The notes beneath the pieces are model-generated. The model had not been told where the DNA came from. It worked only from the letters and a program-made list of their open reading frames with translations, and did not search any database. Made by a program: the position numbers and the translations under genes. From contig NZ_BEWN01000002.1 in assembly GCF_002723955.1 (NCBI RefSeq), forward strand, positions 186,001-250,000: a DNA stretch of 64,000 nucleotides. Reading direction: 5' to 3'. Below, piece by piece: positions 53,637 through 63,433 of this stretch. The stretch's first letter is position 1, and every line of letters begins with the position of its first letter. The DNA comes from Gluconobacter frateurii. GTDB taxonomy: Bacteria > Pseudomonadota > Alphaproteobacteria > Acetobacterales > Acetobacteraceae.

Positions 53637-55187
53637 TCAGGCGGCTTTCTCAGAGAGAGCCTGCTGGGCGTAGTCCTTCAGGCGTTGATGAATGCGGGCC
53701 AATTCTTCCCCATCCTCCAGACGCGGTGCGCAATACTGCACAGGCACAACGGGGGCATCCGGGTAGAGTTCGCTGTATTCGTGAGCGTTGTGAAACATCC
53801 CGCGCGAACTGTCATCCAGAAAACTTTCGGAAGGCGCACCTTCAGCCAAGAGAATATCGTGGGTTTCCAGCTCAATATGAATGTAACTGATATGGCTGGG
53901 TTTTTCGATCTGGATGATGGACAGCCCATTGACCAGATGAAGCGCGGGAATGAGGTAGCCATCTACAAACATGGCGTGGAGGGGGGAAACAGTAAGATCC
54001 CTGCGAGGCAGTTGATTGCCCAATGACCCTTTCTGGAAAACGATGGGTAAAATATCGCGGTTTCCATAGGCAAACATCGGATCGTATGATCGGCGACCGA
54101 TCCAGCGGATCGGCCTTGTTTCGCCGGTAGCAGTCAGAACATTGTCGCCGATCATCAGCTTTTCTACCGGGCGCTCGCCATCCGGTGTGGCGATTAGGGT
54201 TCCCGGGCAGTAGCAGGGGGTTCCGATCATCAGATCGATACCTTGGCCGGAAGGGGCGCTTTTAAAATAATATGGTGAAGAAAAGCCGTCTTTGACTGAA
54301 ATGCGGTTCATGATTGCACCGCTGGATACGACTTCCAGGACAGAACCGGCGGTAGTGTTATCTTTTACTATAACGCCACTGACGGCAGACGGATTATTGC
54401 CAAGATCAGTCAAACTGATTGTTGTCTGGTACATCTCTTGAAAAGTGCCGGTGAGATTGGCATTGCGATCAAGGATGATAACGCCACCACTTGTGACGAC
54501 GTTTTCAACGCTTTGATCAGCACTGACTGAAAGGACACCGCCCTGATTCACAAGAACATCTGATAGTGTTCCGGTTTTTTGCAGAACCGTGCCTGTGCCG
54601 ACGGTTATATGATCTGCGCTTCCTCCGTTCAGAATGAGCGTTCCGCTGCTTCCGAGGGTTGCTGTGTGGAGTATGCCACCGCTGGAGACAATTTGTGTGG
54701 CTGAGAATAGTGTATTAAAGCCGGGTATCATCATCGGGTCGCCAGACCGTAAAGACGCACCCATAATAGTCACATTATCTGATATGCCGCCATTATTGAT
54801 GATGGATGTGGTAGCGGGGCCTAAATATGTATTGCTTGCAAATCCGCCAGATTCAATAATTTGGGTTGCGGGAATTGGCGTCCATGTGTCGTCGCTCATC
54901 GTGGAAGGGCCAACTAACGTTGTTATTCCTGAAATGACACTATCAATGGATGCCGCATCTGAGGTGACTACCTGTGAAACAGGAAAACCAACTTGTTCTC
55001 TTATATTTGCAGGCGGCACCATAAATTGTACCGCCCCACCAGCGAATACCTGTGTGCCTGACACAGCCGTTCCGCTCTGAATTGTTTGAACTGTCCCGTT
55101 AAGATCATTACCCGATACTACGCCACCAGATACGACGGTATATGTTTTTCCGGTTTCTGGAGACGTATAAGTTGAGGAAGCACTCAT
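53637..55187 (-). CDS. Hint-domain protein with AIDA-like N-terminal repeats
   Basis: 516 residues. Residues 1-320 are repeated SGG/NGG-rich strand units (VVSGGVVSGN, QIIESGGFASNT, QIVSSGGILHTATL, ILNGGSADHITV) as in AIDA-type adhesin passengers. A Hint_2-type domain follows: Cys325 at the start of CYCPGTLIAT, ERPVEKLMIGDNVLTA, LTVSPLHAMFVDGYLIPA and HIELETHDILLAEGAPSESF. No signal peptide or beta-barrel is visible. The C-terminal 80 residues carry no extein-like splice partner, so it may cleave itself only. Its promoter region (55188-55372) is AT-rich. Confidence 0.8.
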   Translation of the reverse strand: MSASSTYTSPETGKTYTVVSGGVVSGNDLNGTVQTIQSGTAVSGTQVFAGGAVQFMVPPANIREQVGFPVSQVVTSDAASIDSVISGITTLVGPSTMSDDTWTPIPATQIIESGGFASNTYLGPATTSIINNGGISDNVTIMGASLRSGDPMMIPGFNTLFSATQIVSSGGILHTATLGSSGTLILNGGSADHITVGTGTVLQKTGTLSDVLVNQGGVLSVSADQSVENVVTSGGVIILDRNANLTGTFQEMYQTTISLTDLGNNPSAVSGVIVKDNTTAGSVLEVVSSGAIMNRISVKDGFSSPYYFKSAPSGQGIDLMIGTPCYCPGTLIATPDGERPVEKLMIGDNVLTATGETRPIRWIGRRSYDPMFAYGNRDILPIVFQKGSLGNQLPRRDLTVSPLHAMFVDGYLIPALHLVNGLSIIQIEKPSHISYIHIELETHDILLAEGAPSESFLDDSSRGMFHNAHEYSELYPDAPVVPVQYCAPRLEDGEELARIHQRLKDYAQQALSEKAA

Positions 55188-56859: not shown

Positions 56860-57063
56860 TCAATCGTCCGAACGGATGATGAGCCGTGCCATGATCCGGG
56901 CTGCCGTGACGATCAGGAGCAGCATCAGTGCCTGGATTAGCAGGTTCTGGGTCTTAGGCGGATGCATGAAAAGGATGAACAGCATCGGCAGCGCGATAAG
57001 GTAGGTCAGACCAAGGCGCTGCCAGACTTTTTTGGAAATCGGTGAACGGCGGAATTTGTTCAC
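56860..57063 (-). CDS. Small two-helix membrane protein
   Basis: 67 residues. A basic N-terminus (MNKFRRSPISKKVWQR) precedes two hydrophobic helices (about 19-36 and 43-62). The ATG overlaps the mlaF stop by four bases. I do not recognise a family; the position and size suggest an accessory protein of the lipid transporter, but this is inferred from context alone. Confidence 0.65.
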   Translation of the reverse strand: MNKFRRSPISKKVWQRLGLTYLIALPMLFILFMHPPKTQNLLIQALMLLLIVTAARIMARLIIRSDD

Positions 57064-57848
57064 TTCCGCAGTTCCATGGTGATTGGCCCTTCGCGGCGCC
57101 CATGAGTGAACTGGTCCACCATGGCATTACCAGAATTCATCAGGTCCGCAGCCAGTCCCTGCCAGACCAGTTTGCCATGATAGAGCATGGCCGCCCTGTT
57201 CCCGATGCGCTGGGCGGAAGCCATGTCATGTGTGATGGCGATGGCCGTCGAGCCTAGCTTCTGCACGCAATCCACGATCAGGCCATCAATGACGGCCCCC
57301 ATGATCGGATCAAGCCCGGTCGTTGGTTCGTCAAAGAAGAGGATATTGGGCTGTCCGGCGATGGCGCGCGCCAACCCGACGCGCTTCTGCATGCCACCGG
57401 AAAGCTCGGATGGGCTGAGTTGTCCAACGGATGGGTCCAGCCCTACCTGCTGAAGAATATTTCCTGCAAGTTCCCGTGCTTTGGCACGCGAAGGGACGGG
57501 GCCATCACGGTCTGAGTGCTTGGCGCGCAGACCGAAGGCGATGTTGTCGGCCACGCTCATACTGTCGAACAGGGCGGCATTCTGGAACAGCATGCCAATC
57601 TGTCGACGAATGGCTTCCTGACGGCTGCGAGACGCAGTGAGGATATTCTCGCCATCGATCTCGATCGTGCCGGCATCCGGTTGGATTAAGCCAAGGATGC
57701 AGCGCAGAAGAACGGATTTGCCGGAGCCCGAGCCACCAATGATGACCATCGAGGTGCCGGTTTCGACATCCAGGTCAATTCCATCAAGCACGACCTTGGA
57801 GCCGAAAGCCTTCGAGAGGCCGCGGATGCGGATTTTGGGTGTGCTCAT
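57060..57848 (-). CDS. mlaF: MlaF-like ABC transporter ATP-binding protein
   Basis: 262 residues. Walker A is GGSGSGKS, the signature motif is LSGGM, Walker B is ILFFDEPTTGLDP, and the switch His is in AIAITHDM. N-terminal KIRIRGLSKAFGSKVVLDGI is typical. It drives the MlaFEDB complex, which moves phospholipids at the inner membrane to keep outer-membrane asymmetry. It overlaps mlaE and the small membrane protein by four bases each. Confidence 0.92.
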   Translation of the reverse strand: MSTPKIRIRGLSKAFGSKVVLDGIDLDVETGTSMVIIGGSGSGKSVLLRCILGLIQPDAGTIEIDGENILTASRSRQEAIRRQIGMLFQNAALFDSMSVADNIAFGLRAKHSDRDGPVPSRAKARELAGNILQQVGLDPSVGQLSPSELSGGMQKRVGLARAIAGQPNILFFDEPTTGLDPIMGAVIDGLIVDCVQKLGSTAIAITHDMASAQRIGNRAAMLYHGKLVWQGLAADLMNSGNAMVDQFTHGRREGPITMELRK

Positions 57849-58630
57849 TGGGAGAAAAACAGATCTGTCAGGAGGTAATCAAAAAGCAGAAGCAGGATGG
57901 ATGCTCCCACCACAGCAGCGGTTGTGGCAGAGCCGACGCCTTCTGCGCCCCCACGGCTGTTATAGCCATGATAGCAGCCCAGCAGCGCGATCAGAAAACC
58001 GAAGACAGCGGCTTTGACCAGCCCGACCACGACATCAATGGTTTTCAGGGAATCCAGCGTAGCCGTAATGTAAGTGGAGGGTGAGAAACCGAGTTTCGCT
58101 ACCGAGACGGTAAAGCCGCCCAGAACACCCAGAACGTCCGCCACGATGACGAGGCAGGGCAGGGCGATTGTTCCGGCAAGCAGGCGCGGCGTCACCAGAT
58201 ATTTCATCGGGTTGGTCGAAAGCGTCGTGAGTGCGTCGATCTGATCCGTGACGCGCATTGTGCCGATCTGGGCAGACATGGCCGCGCCAACGCGTCCAGC
58301 AACCATCAGGCCCGCCAGAACGGGACCAAGCTCGCGGGTGACTGCCAACACCACAATTCCGGCAATCGCGCTCTGCACATGGTACTGCCCGAAGCCAACA
58401 TAGGACTGAAGGGCAATGACCGCTCCCGAGAACAGGGCCGTCAGCGCGACGACCGGCAGGGAAAAGAAACCTGTTTCGATCAGCGTGGACAGGAAGATGC
58501 GCCAGTAGAACGGCGGTCGCACCAGATGCGACAGCGCCTCCAGCGCAAACATGGCAAGAGCGCCCGATTGACGGACGAGGCCGAGGACGGCACGGCCAAG
58601 GGCCGCTATGGGATCAAGAACGGCATTCAC
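57845..58630 (-). CDS. mlaE: MlaE-like ABC transporter permease
   Basis: 261 residues with about five or six membrane helices. The family motifs are LQSYVGFGQYHVQSAIAGI, VLAVTRELGPVLAGLMVAGR, GAAMSAQIGTMRVTDQIDAL and YLVTPRLLAGTIALPCL. It is the permease for the MlaF ATPase encoded next. It starts 48 bases after the stop of the second psp-linked protein, so co-transcription is likely. No mlaD is adjacent. Confidence 0.93.
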   Translation of the reverse strand: MNAVLDPIAALGRAVLGLVRQSGALAMFALEALSHLVRPPFYWRIFLSTLIETGFFSLPVVALTALFSGAVIALQSYVGFGQYHVQSAIAGIVVLAVTRELGPVLAGLMVAGRVGAAMSAQIGTMRVTDQIDALTTLSTNPMKYLVTPRLLAGTIALPCLVIVADVLGVLGGFTVSVAKLGFSPSTYITATLDSLKTIDVVVGLVKAAVFGFLIALLGCYHGYNSRGGAEGVGSATTAAVVGASILLLLFDYLLTDLFFSQ

Positions 58631-58678: not shown

Positions 58679-60076
58679 TCAAGCCGACCGTTCCAGGTCC
58701 CGGAATTGCCGTTCCAGAGCGAAATCCGGAGACGTGACGAACTGTTCCATCCGCGCAAGTCTTGGTTCGAGGCGTGCGAGCCGGTCGTTCAGGCGGATGA
58801 GCGCGGGGCTGAGGGATATGCCATCCGAAGCGGAAGAGTGCACCCGGCGGGCATGACGCTGCTTCTGTTCACGGGCGGTGTGGATGACCTCTTCGTAAAG
58901 ATCTATGGCCCGGCGGGTATAATGAATATGGGGGGGCTCGACGCTTGTATGGGTGTCTTCGCCACGACGTTCCCGCATCCGTGCTTCCCAGTTGCGGACA
59001 AACGAGGCGTAACCTTCTGAAGCATCAGTCCAGAGATTTGTGAAAAACGACTGCCCGGTGCGCTTCCGGTATCGACGGGCCCGGCGGAGGATGAGCCCAA
59101 TGATCACCAGTGTGATGACCAGTCTCATGACGCTGTGATGATGAGACGACTGTGTGTTCAGAACTGTCGTTGCGTGAGTGATATCCGTACCGGGCAGTCT
59201 GCTGCCAATGCTGGCCAGAACGTCCCGCGCAATCGCGTTTCCATCCACCTCATTTGTCTTGCTGATATGTGCGCCAGGATCTGTCTGAACGTTGAGGCTA
59301 CCGCTGCCGTAATGTGTCTGGGACAAGGCCCCTGAGACATGATCGACCGTGACATCTCCGCTTCCGAAAAGTTCGAGATGGGCCTGTGTGGTACGGACAT
59401 GGGCCGTGATGTTGGAAGACCCCATATCTCGAACAGACAGATCTTTTACGATGCCGTCTTTGATGAGAATATTACCGCTGGACGTGGCTGCAAGTTCGAT
59501 CCGTTGTGAATTGGCCTGTGCGATTGACAGATCGCCGTTAGAAAAATTCTGGACTTTAACGTTGCCGAACACTCTGTCGATCGAAACGTTTCCGTTGCCC
59601 GTTATCCGGAGCAAAATGTCGGACGCCTGTTCGATCTCAACGTCACCATTTGCGGTAAAACCGCTCATGCGTCCTAGAAGACCTGTGGCGATGACGTGGG
59701 TATTGTTGCCCCGGAAGCCGATATTCGTGCCCGTCGGAACCTGAATTTCCGCGCTTGTATCCGTATTGCAGGATTGGTCCTTGAGGATGAGTTCCAGCTT
59801 GTCCGGGCGTTCGCTGATCAGAACAGCATTTCCGCTCACAACGGACGGTGTAAGACCGCTACGGATATGCAGGTCTGTCAGGCAACTGGGTGCCAGATCC
59901 AGAGACGGGCCGGATGAGGGAGCATTTCCGGGCGGTGGTGCTGGCGGGCTGGGAGATGGTGGTGGTTCAGGGGGAGCAGGGAGCGTTTGCGCCAGACCCA
60001 TGCCCATGAACGAAGCGCTTAAGACAAGTGCCGCACATCCTTGGCCAAAACGCAGCAGAAATTTGGGGCTCGTCAT
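58679..60076 (-). CDS. DUF2807/Toastrack-like envelope protein with PspC-like C-terminal tail
   Basis: 465 residues: signal peptide (to about 30), Pro-rich linker (31-57), a beta-rich DUF2807/GIN-like domain (60-300; units such as FTANGDVEIEQ, NFSNGDLSIAQA, GSGDVTVDHVSG), a membrane helix (316-331) followed by basic residues, and a cytosolic C-terminal part with helices. The last 40 residues (RLARMEQFVTSPDFALERQF...DL) closely resemble the tail of E. coli PspC (RLREMERYVTSDTFTLRSRF, by memory). It has no PspC N-terminal domain. Follows the preceding gene after two bases. Confidence 0.7.
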   Translation of the reverse strand: MTSPKFLLRFGQGCAALVLSASFMGMGLAQTLPAPPEPPPSPSPPAPPPGNAPSSGPSLDLAPSCLTDLHIRSGLTPSVVSGNAVLISERPDKLELILKDQSCNTDTSAEIQVPTGTNIGFRGNNTHVIATGLLGRMSGFTANGDVEIEQASDILLRITGNGNVSIDRVFGNVKVQNFSNGDLSIAQANSQRIELAATSSGNILIKDGIVKDLSVRDMGSSNITAHVRTTQAHLELFGSGDVTVDHVSGALSQTHYGSGSLNVQTDPGAHISKTNEVDGNAIARDVLASIGSRLPGTDITHATTVLNTQSSHHHSVMRLVITLVIIGLILRRARRYRKRTGQSFFTNLWTDASEGYASFVRNWEARMRERRGEDTHTSVEPPHIHYTRRAIDLYEEVIHTAREQKQRHARRVHSSASDGISLSPALIRLNDRLARLEPRLARMEQFVTSPDFALERQFRDLERSA

Positions 60077-60078
60077 CG

Positions 60079-61311
60079 TTAGCCTCCCTGCTTGCTCGCC
60101 TCATCGGAGGCTGGCTTTGAGGGTGTCGGGGCTGTGGTAGAAGGCGCCGGATCGACATGCTGCGTTTCAGGAATGGTAGAGCCTGTGGTCGTGGGTGGGG
60201 ATACCAACTGAGGTGCAGAAGGCTCCTGTTGGCTCTGGGCGGGTAGCTTTGCCGGGGGAGTTGCTGCTTCAGGAACGGTGGCTTTAGCCTCGGGTGCAAC
60301 GGTTGGCGCAGGTGGGACGGCTTGCGGGATAGACTGAGAAGGGGGAGCTACAGGGTCTTTTGATAAAGGCGGCACGTCCTGTGGCTCAGCTTGTTGGCTG
60401 GGCTGAGGTGCCGGAGTCAGAACGGGTGCTGGAGGGCGCGGGGCCGGGGCTGTGGGAGCGCTTTCTGGCACGGCTGGAGATGCAACTGGACTTTGAGGCG
60501 CAGCGGGCGGTTGAATGACGGATGTCGGGGCGGCTTCAGTCGGGCGATAGACTACGCCGTTCTGCGCGCCTACGCGGACAGAGCCATTGCCGGACCGCAC
60601 GATCGGGCCAGAAACGCGCTCAATATTGACGGCGCCTGTGCCATTGGCTGTGACGGTGGCGACGGAGGCATTCCCAAGAACGGTAGCGGATGCGTTATCC
60701 GCGGTGACAATCGTCAGAGCCTCAATGTCTCCCTGGGAAATCGTGAACGAGGCCTGATTGGTCAACTGCGCCGAGAGGGCCGTAAGCTGCGCGGAGTCGG
60801 CTGTGAAGGTCGATGTACCGGAGGCAACGATCTGGGCGGCTCTTTCAAGTGATCCAATATGGACATTCGAGGAGCCATGCATACTCAGGTCCAGCGACTG
60901 GGTGTTCTCGATCTCCATGGATGTTGAGTCGAGACTGGCATCCAGCGAAGCAAGCTTTCCCTTGATCACGAAGCTTGTGTCATGGCTGTCATGGATCGAG
61001 ACGCCGGTATAGGGCGAGACGCTGATGGTCAGCTTGCCATTGGGGGCGCAACTTTTGGTGGCAATGGAAATGCGGCTGTCCGCGTCTTCCTTGCCTGTTC
61101 GCATGGTGACCTGTGTGGCGCTGCTGCTATCGAGCGTGGCGCCATCTTTCATGGTGGAGTCCACAACAATCCGCACCTGACCTGTGCACGGAATCGCCAG
61201 ATCCAGATCTTCGCCGGACATGGAAACGCGTGCGGCATTGGCCGGATGGACAGAAGCTGTCCCTGCCAGCGTGGCCAGCAGCAGCATGCGCAGGGCGGTG
61301 CGGGGCGTCAT
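60079..61311 (-). CDS. DUF2807/Toastrack-like secreted protein with Pro-rich tail
   Basis: 410 residues with a signal peptide (cut near residue 26, ANA). Residues 30-250 are repeated beta units in the DUF2807 style (SLDLSMHGSSNVHIGSL; QIVASGTSTFTADSAQ; TVTANGTGAVNIERVSG). Residues 256-410 are a Pro/Ala/Gln-rich low-complexity tail without a membrane helix, suggesting a periplasmic or wall-spanning extension. Its ATG overlaps the pspB stop by four bases. The function is unknown; location in the Psp operon points to an envelope-stress role. Confidence 0.65.
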   Translation of the reverse strand: MTPRTALRMLLLATLAGTASVHPANAARVSMSGEDLDLAIPCTGQVRIVVDSTMKDGATLDSSSATQVTMRTGKEDADSRISIATKSCAPNGKLTISVSPYTGVSIHDSHDTSFVIKGKLASLDASLDSTSMEIENTQSLDLSMHGSSNVHIGSLERAAQIVASGTSTFTADSAQLTALSAQLTNQASFTISQGDIEALTIVTADNASATVLGNASVATVTANGTGAVNIERVSGPIVRSGNGSVRVGAQNGVVYRPTEAAPTSVIQPPAAPQSPVASPAVPESAPTAPAPRPPAPVLTPAPQPSQQAEPQDVPPLSKDPVAPPSQSIPQAVPPAPTVAPEAKATVPEAATPPAKLPAQSQQEPSAPQLVSPPTTTGSTIPETQHVDPAPSTTAPTPSKPASDEASKQGG

Positions 61312-61559
61312 CGTGAACTCCTAGCGCGCCAGCCCGGGATATCCTCGTCGAGGATGCGTTCGAGCTGGTCGATCCTTTCTTCCAGACGCGTAGCATGGGC
61401 TTCGGCCTGTGTCAGGGCGGCCTGAAGATGTGGGTCGGGTACCCCCTGATTTATAGGTCCACCTGCACGAGCACGAAGCAGCCGCGGCCCGAGGACAAGC
61501 GCCGGGATGAACCCAAGGGTCAGGACGACGGCGACAAGGCCAACAAAGTCCTCATTCAT
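61308..61559 (-). CDS. pspB: Phage shock protein B-like
   Basis: 83 residues. One N-terminal membrane helix (FVGLVAVVLTLGFIPALVLG), then a charged helix with RLEERIDQLERILDEDIPGW, which matches PspB (RIQALESILDAEHPNW in E. coli). PspB joins PspC at the inner membrane to sense stress and release PspA from PspF. It follows pspA after 25 bases and overlaps the next start. A normal PspC gene does not follow. Confidence 0.85.
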   Translation of the reverse strand: MNEDFVGLVAVVLTLGFIPALVLGPRLLRARAGGPINQGVPDPHLQAALTQAEAHATRLEERIDQLERILDEDIPGWRARSSR

Positions 61560-61584
61560 AAGTCAGACTTTCTTCCTGCTCTCA

Positions 61585-62268
61585 TCAGGCATCGCGCTTC
61601 TTGTCAGCAATCCGACGCTTCAACGCTTCAAATTCATCTTCTACTGCAGCGTCCGTTTCCAGCGCAGCCAATTCATCATGCAGGGAAGGGCGACCGGACC
61701 TGCGACCAAGATCATAGGCCTCTGCCTTGCCTTCCAACTCGTCGAGCGCACGCTCCACCTGCTCGAAACGACCCAGCGTATCGTCAATGCGGGTATCATA
61801 GAGCTTTTCACGCGTTTTGAGGCGCCCTTCTGCCGTGCGGGCGCGCATGGTCAGGGTCTTCTCGCGGGATTTCGCATCCGCCAGCTTGGCCTGAAGTTTG
61901 GCGATATCGTCGTTCTGCTGTTCCAGGCCTTCCGTCACCTGTGCAATCTGGCGTTCCAGACCTTCCCGGGACTGTTCGACCGTATGACGTGCGGAGAGTG
62001 CCGCTTTGGCGAGATCGTCGCGGTCTCGCTCAATGGCGAGAGCGGCCTTGCGGTGCCATTCGTCTTCCTCGTGCATCATGGTGCGCACGCGGCGTTCAAG
62101 CTGCTTGCGTTCCGCAATGGTGCGGACGGCCTGGCTGCGGACTTCAACCAGCGTGTCTTCCATCTCCTGGATCACGAGACGGATCATCTTCTGCGGGTCC
62201 TCGGCCGTGGCGAGAATCGCATTGAGATTGGAGTTCACGATATCGGCGAGCCGAGAAAAAATACCCAT
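61585..62268 (-). CDS. pspA: Phage shock protein A
   Basis: 227 residues from the ATG at 62268 (AAGGAAAG upstream). MGIFSRLADIVNSNLNAIL is the amphipathic membrane-binding N-terminus, and nearly all the rest is coiled coil (RERKQL..., LEQQNDDIAKLQAKLADAKS, TLGRFEQVERALDELEGKAE). PspA/IM30 family proteins form ESCRT-III-like assemblies on damaged inner membrane and inhibit PspF. It is divergent from pspF, as in enterobacteria. Confidence 0.95.
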   Translation of the reverse strand: MGIFSRLADIVNSNLNAILATAEDPQKMIRLVIQEMEDTLVEVRSQAVRTIAERKQLERRVRTMMHEEDEWHRKAALAIERDRDDLAKAALSARHTVEQSREGLERQIAQVTEGLEQQNDDIAKLQAKLADAKSREKTLTMRARTAEGRLKTREKLYDTRIDDTLGRFEQVERALDELEGKAEAYDLGRRSGRPSLHDELAALETDAAVEDEFEALKRRIADKKRDA

Positions 62269-62380
62269 GACGCTTTCCTTCCTGAGAACTGGATTAGAGC
62301 ACAATGACCTGTCTTGTCAGCGGGCTCGTTTTGGGGATGTTATGGTTGTGACAATCTGAAGTGGCGAACGAGGCTCAGAA

Positions 62381-63433
62381 ATGGCGAGATCCACCCAAGC
62401 GGACGAGGTTCCGACACCCATCGGGCGGGCTCCGGCATTTCTGGCGATGCTGGATCAGATCTCGCGTCTTGCTCCCCTGAAGCGACCCGTTCTGGTGATC
62501 GGGGAGCGTGGGACAGGCAAGGAACTGGTGGCTGCACGTCTTGCTCTCCTGTCGGATCGCTGGGACGCGCCACTGATCAAGTTGAACTGTGCGGCTTTGC
62601 CGGAAGCTCTGCTGGACAGCGAGCTGTTCGGGCATGAGGCTGGCGCGTTTACTGGTGCGCAGAAGCGGCGTCTGTCGCGGTTTGAGCGTGCAGATGGCGG
62701 AACACTGTTTCTGGATGAAATTGGCACAGCCTCTCTCGCCGTTCAGGAAAAACTGCTGCGCGTTATTGAGTACGGCAGTTTCGAGCGTGTTGGAGGCAGT
62801 GAGACGATCCGGGTGGATGTGCGTCTGATCGGTGCGACCAATGCGGATCTGCCCACTATGGCGCAGGAAGGAACTTTCCGACCGGATCTTCTGGATCGAC
62901 TGGCTTTCGATGTGGTCAATGTTCCGCCGTTGAGAGCGCGGGAAGAGGACATTCCTCTTCTGGCCGAGCATTTCGCCACGAAGATGAGTGCCGAGTTGGG
63001 CCGCAAGCTTTTCGTTGGCTTCTCCGCGAAGGCGTTGCAATGTCTGATGGATCACAACTGGCCGGGCAATGTGCGAGAGCTGCGGAATGTGGTGGAACGT
63101 AGTGTCTATAGGATGGAGCAGCCGGAGCGTCGACTGGACGAGATTGTCCTTGATCCGTTCGTGACGCCCGACTGGGACGCACATGTCGTTGCTCCGCCGA
63201 CCGTAATTTCCAATGCGGCTTCGGGAAGTCCTCAGACGTTTCCGCTGGATTTTTCCGAGACTGTCAAAAGCCATGAGCGGACTCTTTTGGAGGCTGCCCT
63301 GCGTGAGGCGCAGTTCAGTCAGCGGCAGGCTGCGGAGCTGCTGGGGCTGACCTACTACCAGTTCCGGCATCACCTGCGGCTGCATGGTCTTGCAGACAAG
63401 GAAGCGCGGAAGGCTTTGACCAAAAAGGGATAG
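62381..63433 (+). CDS. pspF: Sigma-54-dependent activator PspF
   Basis: 350 residues with no N-terminal receiver domain, as in PspF. AAA+ features: Walker A GERGTGKE at 41-48, the sigma-54 contact loop GAFTGA at 88-93, Walker B GGTLFLDEIG at 106-115, and RLAFDVVNVPPLRAREEDIP with the arginine finger. A Fis-type helix-turn-helix ends it (SQRQAAELLGLTYYQFRHHL). It should activate the psp operon with sigma-54, held inactive by PspA. Divergent from pspA; the gap is 112 bases. Confidence 0.92.
   Translation: MARSTQADEVPTPIGRAPAFLAMLDQISRLAPLKRPVLVIGERGTGKELVAARLALLSDRWDAPLIKLNCAALPEALLDSELFGHEAGAFTGAQKRRLSRFERADGGTLFLDEIGTASLAVQEKLLRVIEYGSFERVGGSETIRVDVRLIGATNADLPTMAQEGTFRPDLLDRLAFDVVNVPPLRAREEDIPLLAEHFATKMSAELGRKLFVGFSAKALQCLMDHNWPGNVRELRNVVERSVYRMEQPERRLDEIVLDPFVTPDWDAHVVAPPTVISNAASGSPQTFPLDFSETVKSHERTLLEAALREAQFSQRQAAELLGLTYYQFRHHLRLHGLADKEARKALTKKG

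Follow-up and report, generated by a model that had tools for sequence, protein, structure and literature searches.

A probable PspC substitute in Gluconobacter frateurii that joins a Toastrack domain to the C-terminal tail of PspC

The psp operon of Gluconobacter frateurii encodes a membrane protein, here called Y, in which a Toastrack domain is combined with the C-terminal tail of PspC, and from which the PspC head is missing. Y is probably (with a likelihood of roughly two in three) a headless substitute for PspC, acting as a single-pass receptor with its Toastrack in the periplasm, its tail in the cytoplasm, and a dedicated PspB as its partner in the sensor pair. This suggests that, in the acetic acid bacteria, the sensor was exchanged and its connection to the stress machinery retained. 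The original prediction, that an envelope sensor had taken the place of PspC, is supported by the tail match, the absence of the head, and the comparative evidence, with the amendment that the unit exchanged is the PspB–Y pair, and not Y alone. The sensing of membrane damage by PspC, and its relay to PspA, has long been an open question, and a hard one to approach, since a single small protein, whose topology is debated, contains the head, the membrane part, and the tail. In Y, the tail is separated from the head and attached to a protein for which the predicted layout is clearly outside-in, which opens the tail to tests as a transferable module. Natural comparisons are offered by the genomes that have both sensors, by the one in which PspA is missing, and by the operons that have lost the sigma-54 promoter.

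The window is the whole stretch of 64,000 nucleotides that was analyzed, and belongs to a genome of 3.31 Mb that is 99.97% complete. It contains the operon pspA-pspB-X-Y, followed by mlaEF, with a divergent pspF (Table 1), and X overlaps pspB by 4 nt and is separated from Y by a gap of 2 nt. PspA and PspF exceed the cut-offs of their family models (TIGR02977, 282.1 bits against 242.95, and TIGR02974, 505.5 bits against 443.55), while PspB passes that of PF06667 (33.3 bits against 25.6) and falls just short of that of TIGR02976 (48.7 bits against 51.7). The predicted set of pspA, pspB, and divergent pspF, with two beta-rich proteins in overlapping or touching frames, is thus confirmed by both the gene coordinates and the family models.

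Table 1. Features of the psp locus, in positions of the window.
Feature	Position	Strand	Remarks
pspF	62381-63433	+	Walker A, GAFTGA, and W-loop present
pspA	62268-61585	-	TIGR02977, 282 bits; start set by homology
pspB, Y-partner lineage	61559-61308	-	Pfam match and tree
X	61311-60079	-	410 aa, probably secreted, Toastrack fold
Y	60076-58679	-	465 aa, probable type-I membrane protein
Y Toastrack beta-helix (DUF2807)	59258..59905	-	Residues 58-273, predicted periplasmic
Y transmembrane helix	59078..59134	-	Residues 315-333, then a positively charged stretch (positive inside)
Y PspC-type C-terminal tail	58694..58807	-	Residues 424-461
pspA-pspF intergenic region	62269..62380	.	Without a good sigma-54 -24/-12 element
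mlaE permease gene	57845..58630	-	48 bp downstream of Y, same strand
mlaF-type ABC ATPase gene	57060..57848	-	

Y begins with a signal peptide, continues with a Toastrack beta-helix and a single transmembrane helix, and ends in a tail of 38 residues that is homologous to that of PspC. Residues 156–264 of the beta region match DUF2807 (PF10988, 26.2 bits against a cut-off of 24.2), while PF13349 remains below its cut-off (21.5 bits against 22.9), and the NCBIfam model of LiaG reaches 25.9 of the required 285 bits. The AlphaFold2 model includes the beta-helix at 58–273 (pLDDT mostly above 90), the membrane helix that had been predicted for this protein, at 315–340, and two tail helices (424–448 and 450–464, pLDDT about 60–80), and its best match in Foldseek is a loose one, to the DUF2807-type structure 3pet (E 2.4e-4, TMt 0.48, rmsd 8.1). 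The signal peptide and topology were read from the helices of this model and from hydropathy, rather than from a dedicated predictor, and indicate that Y is a probable type-I protein, with a periplasmic Toastrack and a cytoplasmic tail. The positive charge is greater after the transmembrane helix than before it in 31 of the 35 aligned Y rows, with four deviating from the positive-inside pattern. A putative disulfide may be supposed in the Toastrack, where C65 and C103 are both invariant in nine close rows, and only C103, and not C65, across the 35. Of the four parts of Y measured in these 35 rows, conservation is highest in the tail (mean majority fraction 0.68, against 0.47 for the Toastrack, 0.37 for the transmembrane helix, and 0.28 for the linker).

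The beta-helix fold and the Psp/Lia context of Y are common to the Toastrack proteins (DUF2807/DUF4097/DUF2154), including LiaG/LiaF, 3PET, 3LJY, 3JX8, 4OPW, and 4QRK. The Toastracks described in PMC11237479 tend to be C-terminal to transmembrane domains and are predicted to be intracellular, whereas that of Y is N-terminal, behind a signal peptide, with the PspC tail placed after the transmembrane helix. This speaks for a periplasmic location of at least one Toastrack, contrary to the general prediction for the domain. A different arrangement is found in the PspA-PspB-PspC-Toastrack operons of other Acetobacteraceae (L039–L044), in which PspC is complete and is adjoined by a Toastrack that, unlike Y, carries a basic stretch and a hydrophobic segment at its N-terminus and the beta domain at its C-terminus, with no tail.

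The tail of Y is homologous to that of PspC, and its likeness is not due to chance. Residues 420–461 match positions 80–121 of the 121-position PspC model TIGR02978 (E 1.2e-6), with a score of 28.4 bits that derives from the tail positions only and is far from the full-length cut-off of 104 bits. A model built from the tails alone of 18 PspCs gives Y a score of 56.0 bits, while only 609 of 2000 shuffled copies of residues 406–465 scored at all, with a maximum of 7.5 bits. In the profile–profile comparison of the Y tail with PspC, the probability was 98.9 (E 1.4e-17), with 43% identity across 37 columns, so that the predicted resemblance lies far above background. The tail is carried by 92 of the 129 homologues among the matches listed (P0001–P0129, which comprise all nine matches of one search and the best 120 of the 137 of another), and the 37 without it are nearly all remote Toastracks, with one, P0092, being close but truncated. 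Convergence, or the likeness of one generic coiled coil to another, is a very improbable source of these matches: the tail is helical and heptad-like, and PspB, another coil, is weakly similar to it, but neither the scores nor the identity, nor the distribution of the tail among the homologues, would be expected from this, and the generic coiled coil was ruled out by the shuffle control together with the linkage to pspB described below. A homology between the tail and PspB was also considered and set aside, given its weak profile probability (29 for the Y tail, 74 for PspC); a divergent PspB fused to PspC is reported in Ravi 2024 (PMC11237479). A derivation of the transmembrane helix from PspC was likewise rejected, since the profile alignment covers the tail alone, although some TIGR02978 matches begin at position 35–48.

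No PspC head was found with this tail, as had been predicted for the locus. Searched with E as high as 1, Y gives no match to model PF04024, and none above the cut-off is present in the psp locus or in the rest of the genome, where the best match has an E of 0.69. A PspC head above the Pfam cut-off is missing from 35 of the 39 Y-bearing genomes tested, and the remaining four have a separate pspFABC locus. Y thus resembles PspC (TIGR02978/PF04024) in its C-terminal tail, its pspB partner, its position in the psp operon, and probably the cytoplasmic side of its tail, and differs from it in the lack of a head, the predicted periplasmic Toastrack and signal peptide found instead, and a single transmembrane helix that cannot be aligned with that of PspC. 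In a count made by hand across 299 genomes of the family, 27 of the 28 headless tail matches (21 of 22 genomes) lie within 5 kb of pspB on the same contig, and the lone exception is weak (E 6.9e-4) and lies inside a 1115-aa frame. Five of the 26 genomes of the same genus are without Y, and are likewise without PspA. The replacement of PspC by Toastrack proteins in some Alphaproteobacteria has already been published (Ravi 2024, PMC11237479), and the operons with several Toastracks in the place of PspC presented there (for example, ANQ40502.1) are very probably loci of the same kind; the PspC tail, the type-I topology, the separate pspB-Y units, and the promoter change are not described in the accessible part of that paper. 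A literature search on psp in acetic acid bacteria gave nothing relevant among the entries listed.

It also appears, from the PspB tree, that Y has a PspB lineage of its own, which is new here. In this tree, of 81 columns only, a branch (94/87, 96% of the bootstrap trees) sets the Y-partner PspBs apart from those that accompany PspC at other loci in the same genomes. In six relatives, pspB-Y is located away from pspA, and four of these genomes, from three genera, also have pspFABC, with a PspC that has lost the tail motif; both findings are likewise new. The motif is present in 19 of the 26 PspCs of the family without Y, against none of the four with Y (Fisher 0.012, with relatedness ignored), and since the tail has also decayed in seven of those 26 genomes (five of genus code g120 and two of g82), its loss is not specific to Y. 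The tracking of pspB, the loss of the PspC tail beside Y, and the sigma-54 elements on pspB-Y favor, on comparative grounds, a hand-over of the tail. In the Toastrack tree, which is biased by other rows that were obtained by searching with Y itself, the main-type and separate Y are not joined; the placement of Y in a single clade narrowly escapes rejection (p-AU 0.053, or 0.129 with X), so that either one or several graftings are possible.

A sigma-54 element (a -24/-12 score of at least 16 within 400 nt, with a chance of about 6% for 16) precedes pspA in all 30 PspC operons of the family, and in none of the 27 Y loci; L019, L026, and L027, whose stretches do not include pspA, and L074, which lacks the gene, were dropped before this count. 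All six separate pspB-Y units have an element scoring 16.5–17 at most 135 nt from pspB (random 400-mers reach 16.5 in 0.7–1.3% of cases), and are therefore probable members of the PspF regulon. These elements, and the disappearance of that of pspA where Y follows pspA-pspB, are new here. A promoter loss in the four genomes with both PspC and Y was discarded once 400 nt were examined, as the element was found at -288 to -329. Exact sites for TGGCACGNNNNTTGCW number three in the genome, and the reversed control pattern has one match. The PspF beside the Y operons retains Walker A and the W-loop in 27 of 27 cases, and GAFTGA in 26 of 27, and rpoN is present in the source genome. It is tentatively proposed, at somewhat less than even odds, that the tail of PspC is a PspA-docking module that can be carried from one protein to another. 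In the Acetobacteraceae, it would have been moved onto a periplasmic Toastrack with its own PspB lineage, serving first in a second sensor, separate and driven by sigma-54, in genomes with pspFABC, whose PspC then lost its tail. Later, this sensor would have replaced pspBC in the main operon, where the sigma-54 control of pspA would also have been given up, and the result would be a Psp response in which both the sensor and the wiring are new.

The binding partners, switching, and signal of Y, like its topology, are those that we infer for a receptor of this kind. At rest, PspB would hold the tail of Y, and under envelope stress, the Toastrack would change state, perhaps together with the secreted Toastrack X, and the freed tail would capture PspA at the membrane. 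The docking to PspA and PspB is proposed by analogy with PspC, for which, rather than for Y, the binding of the tail to PspA or PspB is reported in PMC5596341 and PMC3068692; in the latter, the leucine zipper and G48 of PspC are required for the PspA interaction, and the side of the tail in Escherichia coli PspC is debated, with two topologies being proposed. In the relatives with a separate pspB-Y, the capture of PspA would probably also release PspF to act on sigma-54 promoters. Given the absence of the pspA element, this classical output is unsupported in the Y-operon lineage, despite the GAFTGA of PspF, and the transcriptional output may differ, with the recruitment of PspA to the membrane probably being the main one. 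This absence would also suit a Y that is mainly an anchor or scaffold fixing PspA at the inner membrane, as an effector that neither senses nor regulates transcription, which is a possible role, if a doubtful one, considering the conserved PspF kept beside the operon, the sigma-54 elements on the separate units, and the large periplasmic domain, which seems costly for a mere anchor. A receptor that acts with PspB alone, with no need for PspA, is quite unlikely: one genome (G071) has pspB-X-Y and no PspA match, but the end of its tail is degenerate, and PspA is present in all nine other main-type Y genomes tested (G000, G002, G024, G033, G074, G086, G097, G127, and G133), beside pspB in eight of them, and on a different contig from Y in G002.

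The other beta-rich protein, X, has a beta part (29–247) and a Pro-rich part (252–410), with no C-terminal membrane helix in its structure model. It has the same fold as Y (best Foldseek match to the DUF2807-type 3ljy, E 1e-5, TMt 0.71), with no Pfam match above the cut-off (PF10988, 10.9 bits against 24.2), so that a Toastrack is supported for Y by both PF10988 and fold, and for X by fold only. The mlaE gene follows Y in each of the 38 main-type loci whose sequence extends past it (with duplicates kept), and is a neighbor in none of the 16 longer PspC-type loci and none of the six separate pspB-Y loci. This association, and its persistence in the genome without PspA, could mean that PspB-X-Y serves the adjoining MlaEF phospholipid transporter, with the tail merely bringing PspA there. 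This is unlikely, however, as mlaEF does not adjoin the separate pspB-Y units, the main-type gene order is probably one inherited arrangement, and the genome contains two other MlaE genes.

Residues 420-461 of Y, the 465-aa predicted membrane protein of the psp locus, align with the final 42 positions of the PspC model (E 1.2e-6), and a tail HMM built from 18 PspCs gives Y 56.0 bits, against 7.5 for the best of 2000 shuffled tails, which bears out the original prediction of a PspC-like tail on this protein. A profile-profile comparison of the Y tail with PspC yielded a probability of 98.9 (E 1.4e-17, 43% identity over 37 columns), with the TM helix remaining outside the alignment. The predicted absence of the PspC N-terminal domain, or head, was also confirmed, given that a whole-genome search returned a best head match of E 0.69. 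The tail is present in 92 of the 129 homologues fetched, and almost all of the 37 lacking it are remote Toastracks. Named relatives of Y belong to Gluconobacter (17 of 17 loci in one set), which places the window's genome within or close to that genus.

Features of the psp locus and one further frame in the window
Feature	Position	Strand	Remarks
pspA	62268-61585	minus	PspA above NCBIfam cut-off
pspB	61559-61308	minus	PspB above Pfam cut-off, slightly below NCBIfam cut-off
X	61311-60079	minus	
Y	60076-58679	minus	DUF2807 cut-off exceeded
pspF	62381-63433	divergent from pspA	PspF above NCBIfam cut-off
mlaE/mlaF			downstream of Y
516-aa repeat-bearing frame	53637-55187	minus	contains a stretch possibly resembling a Hint/intein-type processing domain

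The AlphaFold2 model of Y (35 Y rows; mean pLDDT 78, pTM 0.55 overall) comprises a beta-helix at 58-273, with pLDDT mostly above 90, and a TM helix at 315-340; it also has linker helices and a pair of tail helices modelled with moderate confidence. The top solved structures recovered by Foldseek are of the DUF2807 type (3pet, 3ljy, 3jx8, 3lyc and 4opw, with 4qrk weaker), and these folds, together with the domain match, uphold the description of Y as a Toastrack-like membrane protein; the superposition on 3pet is loose (TMt 0.48, rmsd 8.1), and a PDB profile search recovers the same structure at E 2.1e-11. The model of X, the 410-aa, probably secreted protein encoded between pspB and Y, has a Y-like fold (3ljy, E 1e-5, TMt 0.71) and ends in a Pro-rich stretch; its Pfam search returned nothing above cut-off. 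C65 and C103 of Y are invariant among nine close rows, and C103 alone across all 35, while C42 and C88 of X are invariant in 18 rows, and these pairs would fit a periplasmic disulphide in each protein. The C-terminal flank of the Y TM helix is the more positive in 31 of 35 rows. Y is thus most likely a type I membrane protein, with the tail inside and the Toastrack outside.

Multiple Toastrack proteins are known in place of PspC in some Alphaproteobacteria (e.g., ANQ40502.1), according to passages of PMC11237479, which also argue that the Toastrack is intracellular, unlike the most likely outside location in Y. These passages make no mention of a PspC tail on a Toastrack, and no report of such a graft was found in the titles and abstract openings of a literature search. 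Passages of PMC5596341, citing Flores-Kim and Darwin (2015), state that in the on state PspA is bound by the C-terminal cytoplasmic domain of PspC and PspF is thereby set free; the reference list of that paper includes Flores-Kim and Darwin (2016), which by its title attributes silencing of the response to PspB-PspC cytoplasmic contacts. In E. coli, the interaction of PspC with PspA requires the leucine zipper (77-98) and G48, and two PspC topologies have been proposed (passages of PMC3068692). By homology, the Y tail should act as the PspC tail does. On the best reading, Y would be a receptor displaying the PspC tail, held in check by PspB and driven by a periplasmic Toastrack.

Two arrangements were found. 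The main type has pspF and pspA-pspB-X-Y(-Y2)-mlaEF, and the separate type (L060, L061, L062, L067, L070, L073) has pspB-Y, with pspA and pspF absent from the examined stretch, less surely so in L062, where just 493 bases lie upstream of pspB. Four separate-type genomes (G092, G098, G128, G225) also carry pspF-pspA-pspB-pspC elsewhere, and the other two are 85% and 66% complete. Among 39 Y genomes, a head passes the PF04024 cut-off in precisely these four and in none of the other 35. In a PspB tree (48 rows, 81 columns), the Y-adjacent PspBs lie on one side of a branch (94/87, not starred), separate from the PspC-locus PspBs of the same genomes, and a tree that joins separate-type PspBs to the PspC-partner PspBs of their own genomes is weakly rejected (p-AU 0.046). 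The mlaE gene follows Y in all 38 main-type loci with sequence past Y (duplicates included); neither the 16 longer PspC-type loci nor the six separate pspB-Y loci carry it beside their psp genes. The window's genome has two additional MlaE genes. In L074 (G071, given as 100% complete), pspB-X-Y-mlaEF is present, the PspA search gave no match, and the terminal stretch of the Y tail is degenerate.

Headless tails occur in 21 of 26 same-genus genomes; among the five without one, PspA had no match in any, and PspB none in the four sampled. The 299 family (Acetobacteraceae) genomes hold 28 headless matches in 22 genomes (model start of at least 35; counted by hand), and 27 of these (21 genomes) lie no more than 5 kb from a PspB match of the same contig. 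Tandem pairs of tail-bearing Toastracks occur in genus g109 and in G033. In the overlapping samples of 385 class and 398 phylum genomes, no headless tail outside the family lies in a frame of at least 300 aa, and those found are short frames alone (79-168 aa). The headless mini-PspC of two alphaproteobacterial f51 loci (L088, 3826-4068; L089, 3316-3552), of 78-80 aa with one TM and an intact tail, is a further instance, in the order pspC, mini-PspC, second pspB. Short one-TM frames with a PspC/PspB-like tail also lie away from pspC in L085, L086, L095 and L096 (f190, f226; phylum), and look partly PspB-like.

The V[TSA][STA]..[FY].L motif is found in family PspCs of 19 of 26 genomes without Y and none of four with it (Fisher 0.012). 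The seven motif-less PspCs in genomes without detected Y, and the spread of the four PspC+Y genomes over three genera, argue against a simple hand-over. In genus g120 (L050, L051, L052, L054, L055), where Y was not found, the sigma-54 element and pspABC are kept, the PspC tails are degenerate, and three of five genomes have two consecutive pspB genes.

Each of the six separate pspB-Y units carries a good -24/-12 element 49 to 135 nt upstream of pspB, scoring 16.5-17 (random 400-mers reach 16.5 in 0.7-1.3% and 16 in about 6%), and on these elements they are probable members of the sigma-54 (PspF) regulon. In the 400 nt upstream of pspA, family PspC operons score at least 16 in 30 of 30 cases and at least 16.5 in 29, and none of the 27 Y loci, the window's included, reaches 16 (maximum 14.5), these loci being mutually related and one genome possibly counted twice. 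The score overlooks some elements, since only six of nine extra-family PspC loci reach 16 (G591, G1005 and G047 fall below). Several Y loci retain weak sigma-54 remnants at -44 to -46, and the absence across the 27 may reflect a single loss; in the lineage of the window, recruiting PspA may matter more than inducing transcription. PspF is intact although pspA shows no visible sigma-54 target, with Walker A and the W-loop in 27/27 Y loci and GAFTGA in 26/27, and rpoN is present in the window's genome. The Gluconobacter pspA-pspF gap (window 62269-62380) contains a block conserved in 12 sequences, CTGACAAG...CTAA, which could be a piece of another promoter type. In L048, L053, L056, L066, L088 and L089, the best sigma-54 element lies some 280-330 nt before pspA, rather than 48-85, leaving room for a leader or small gene.
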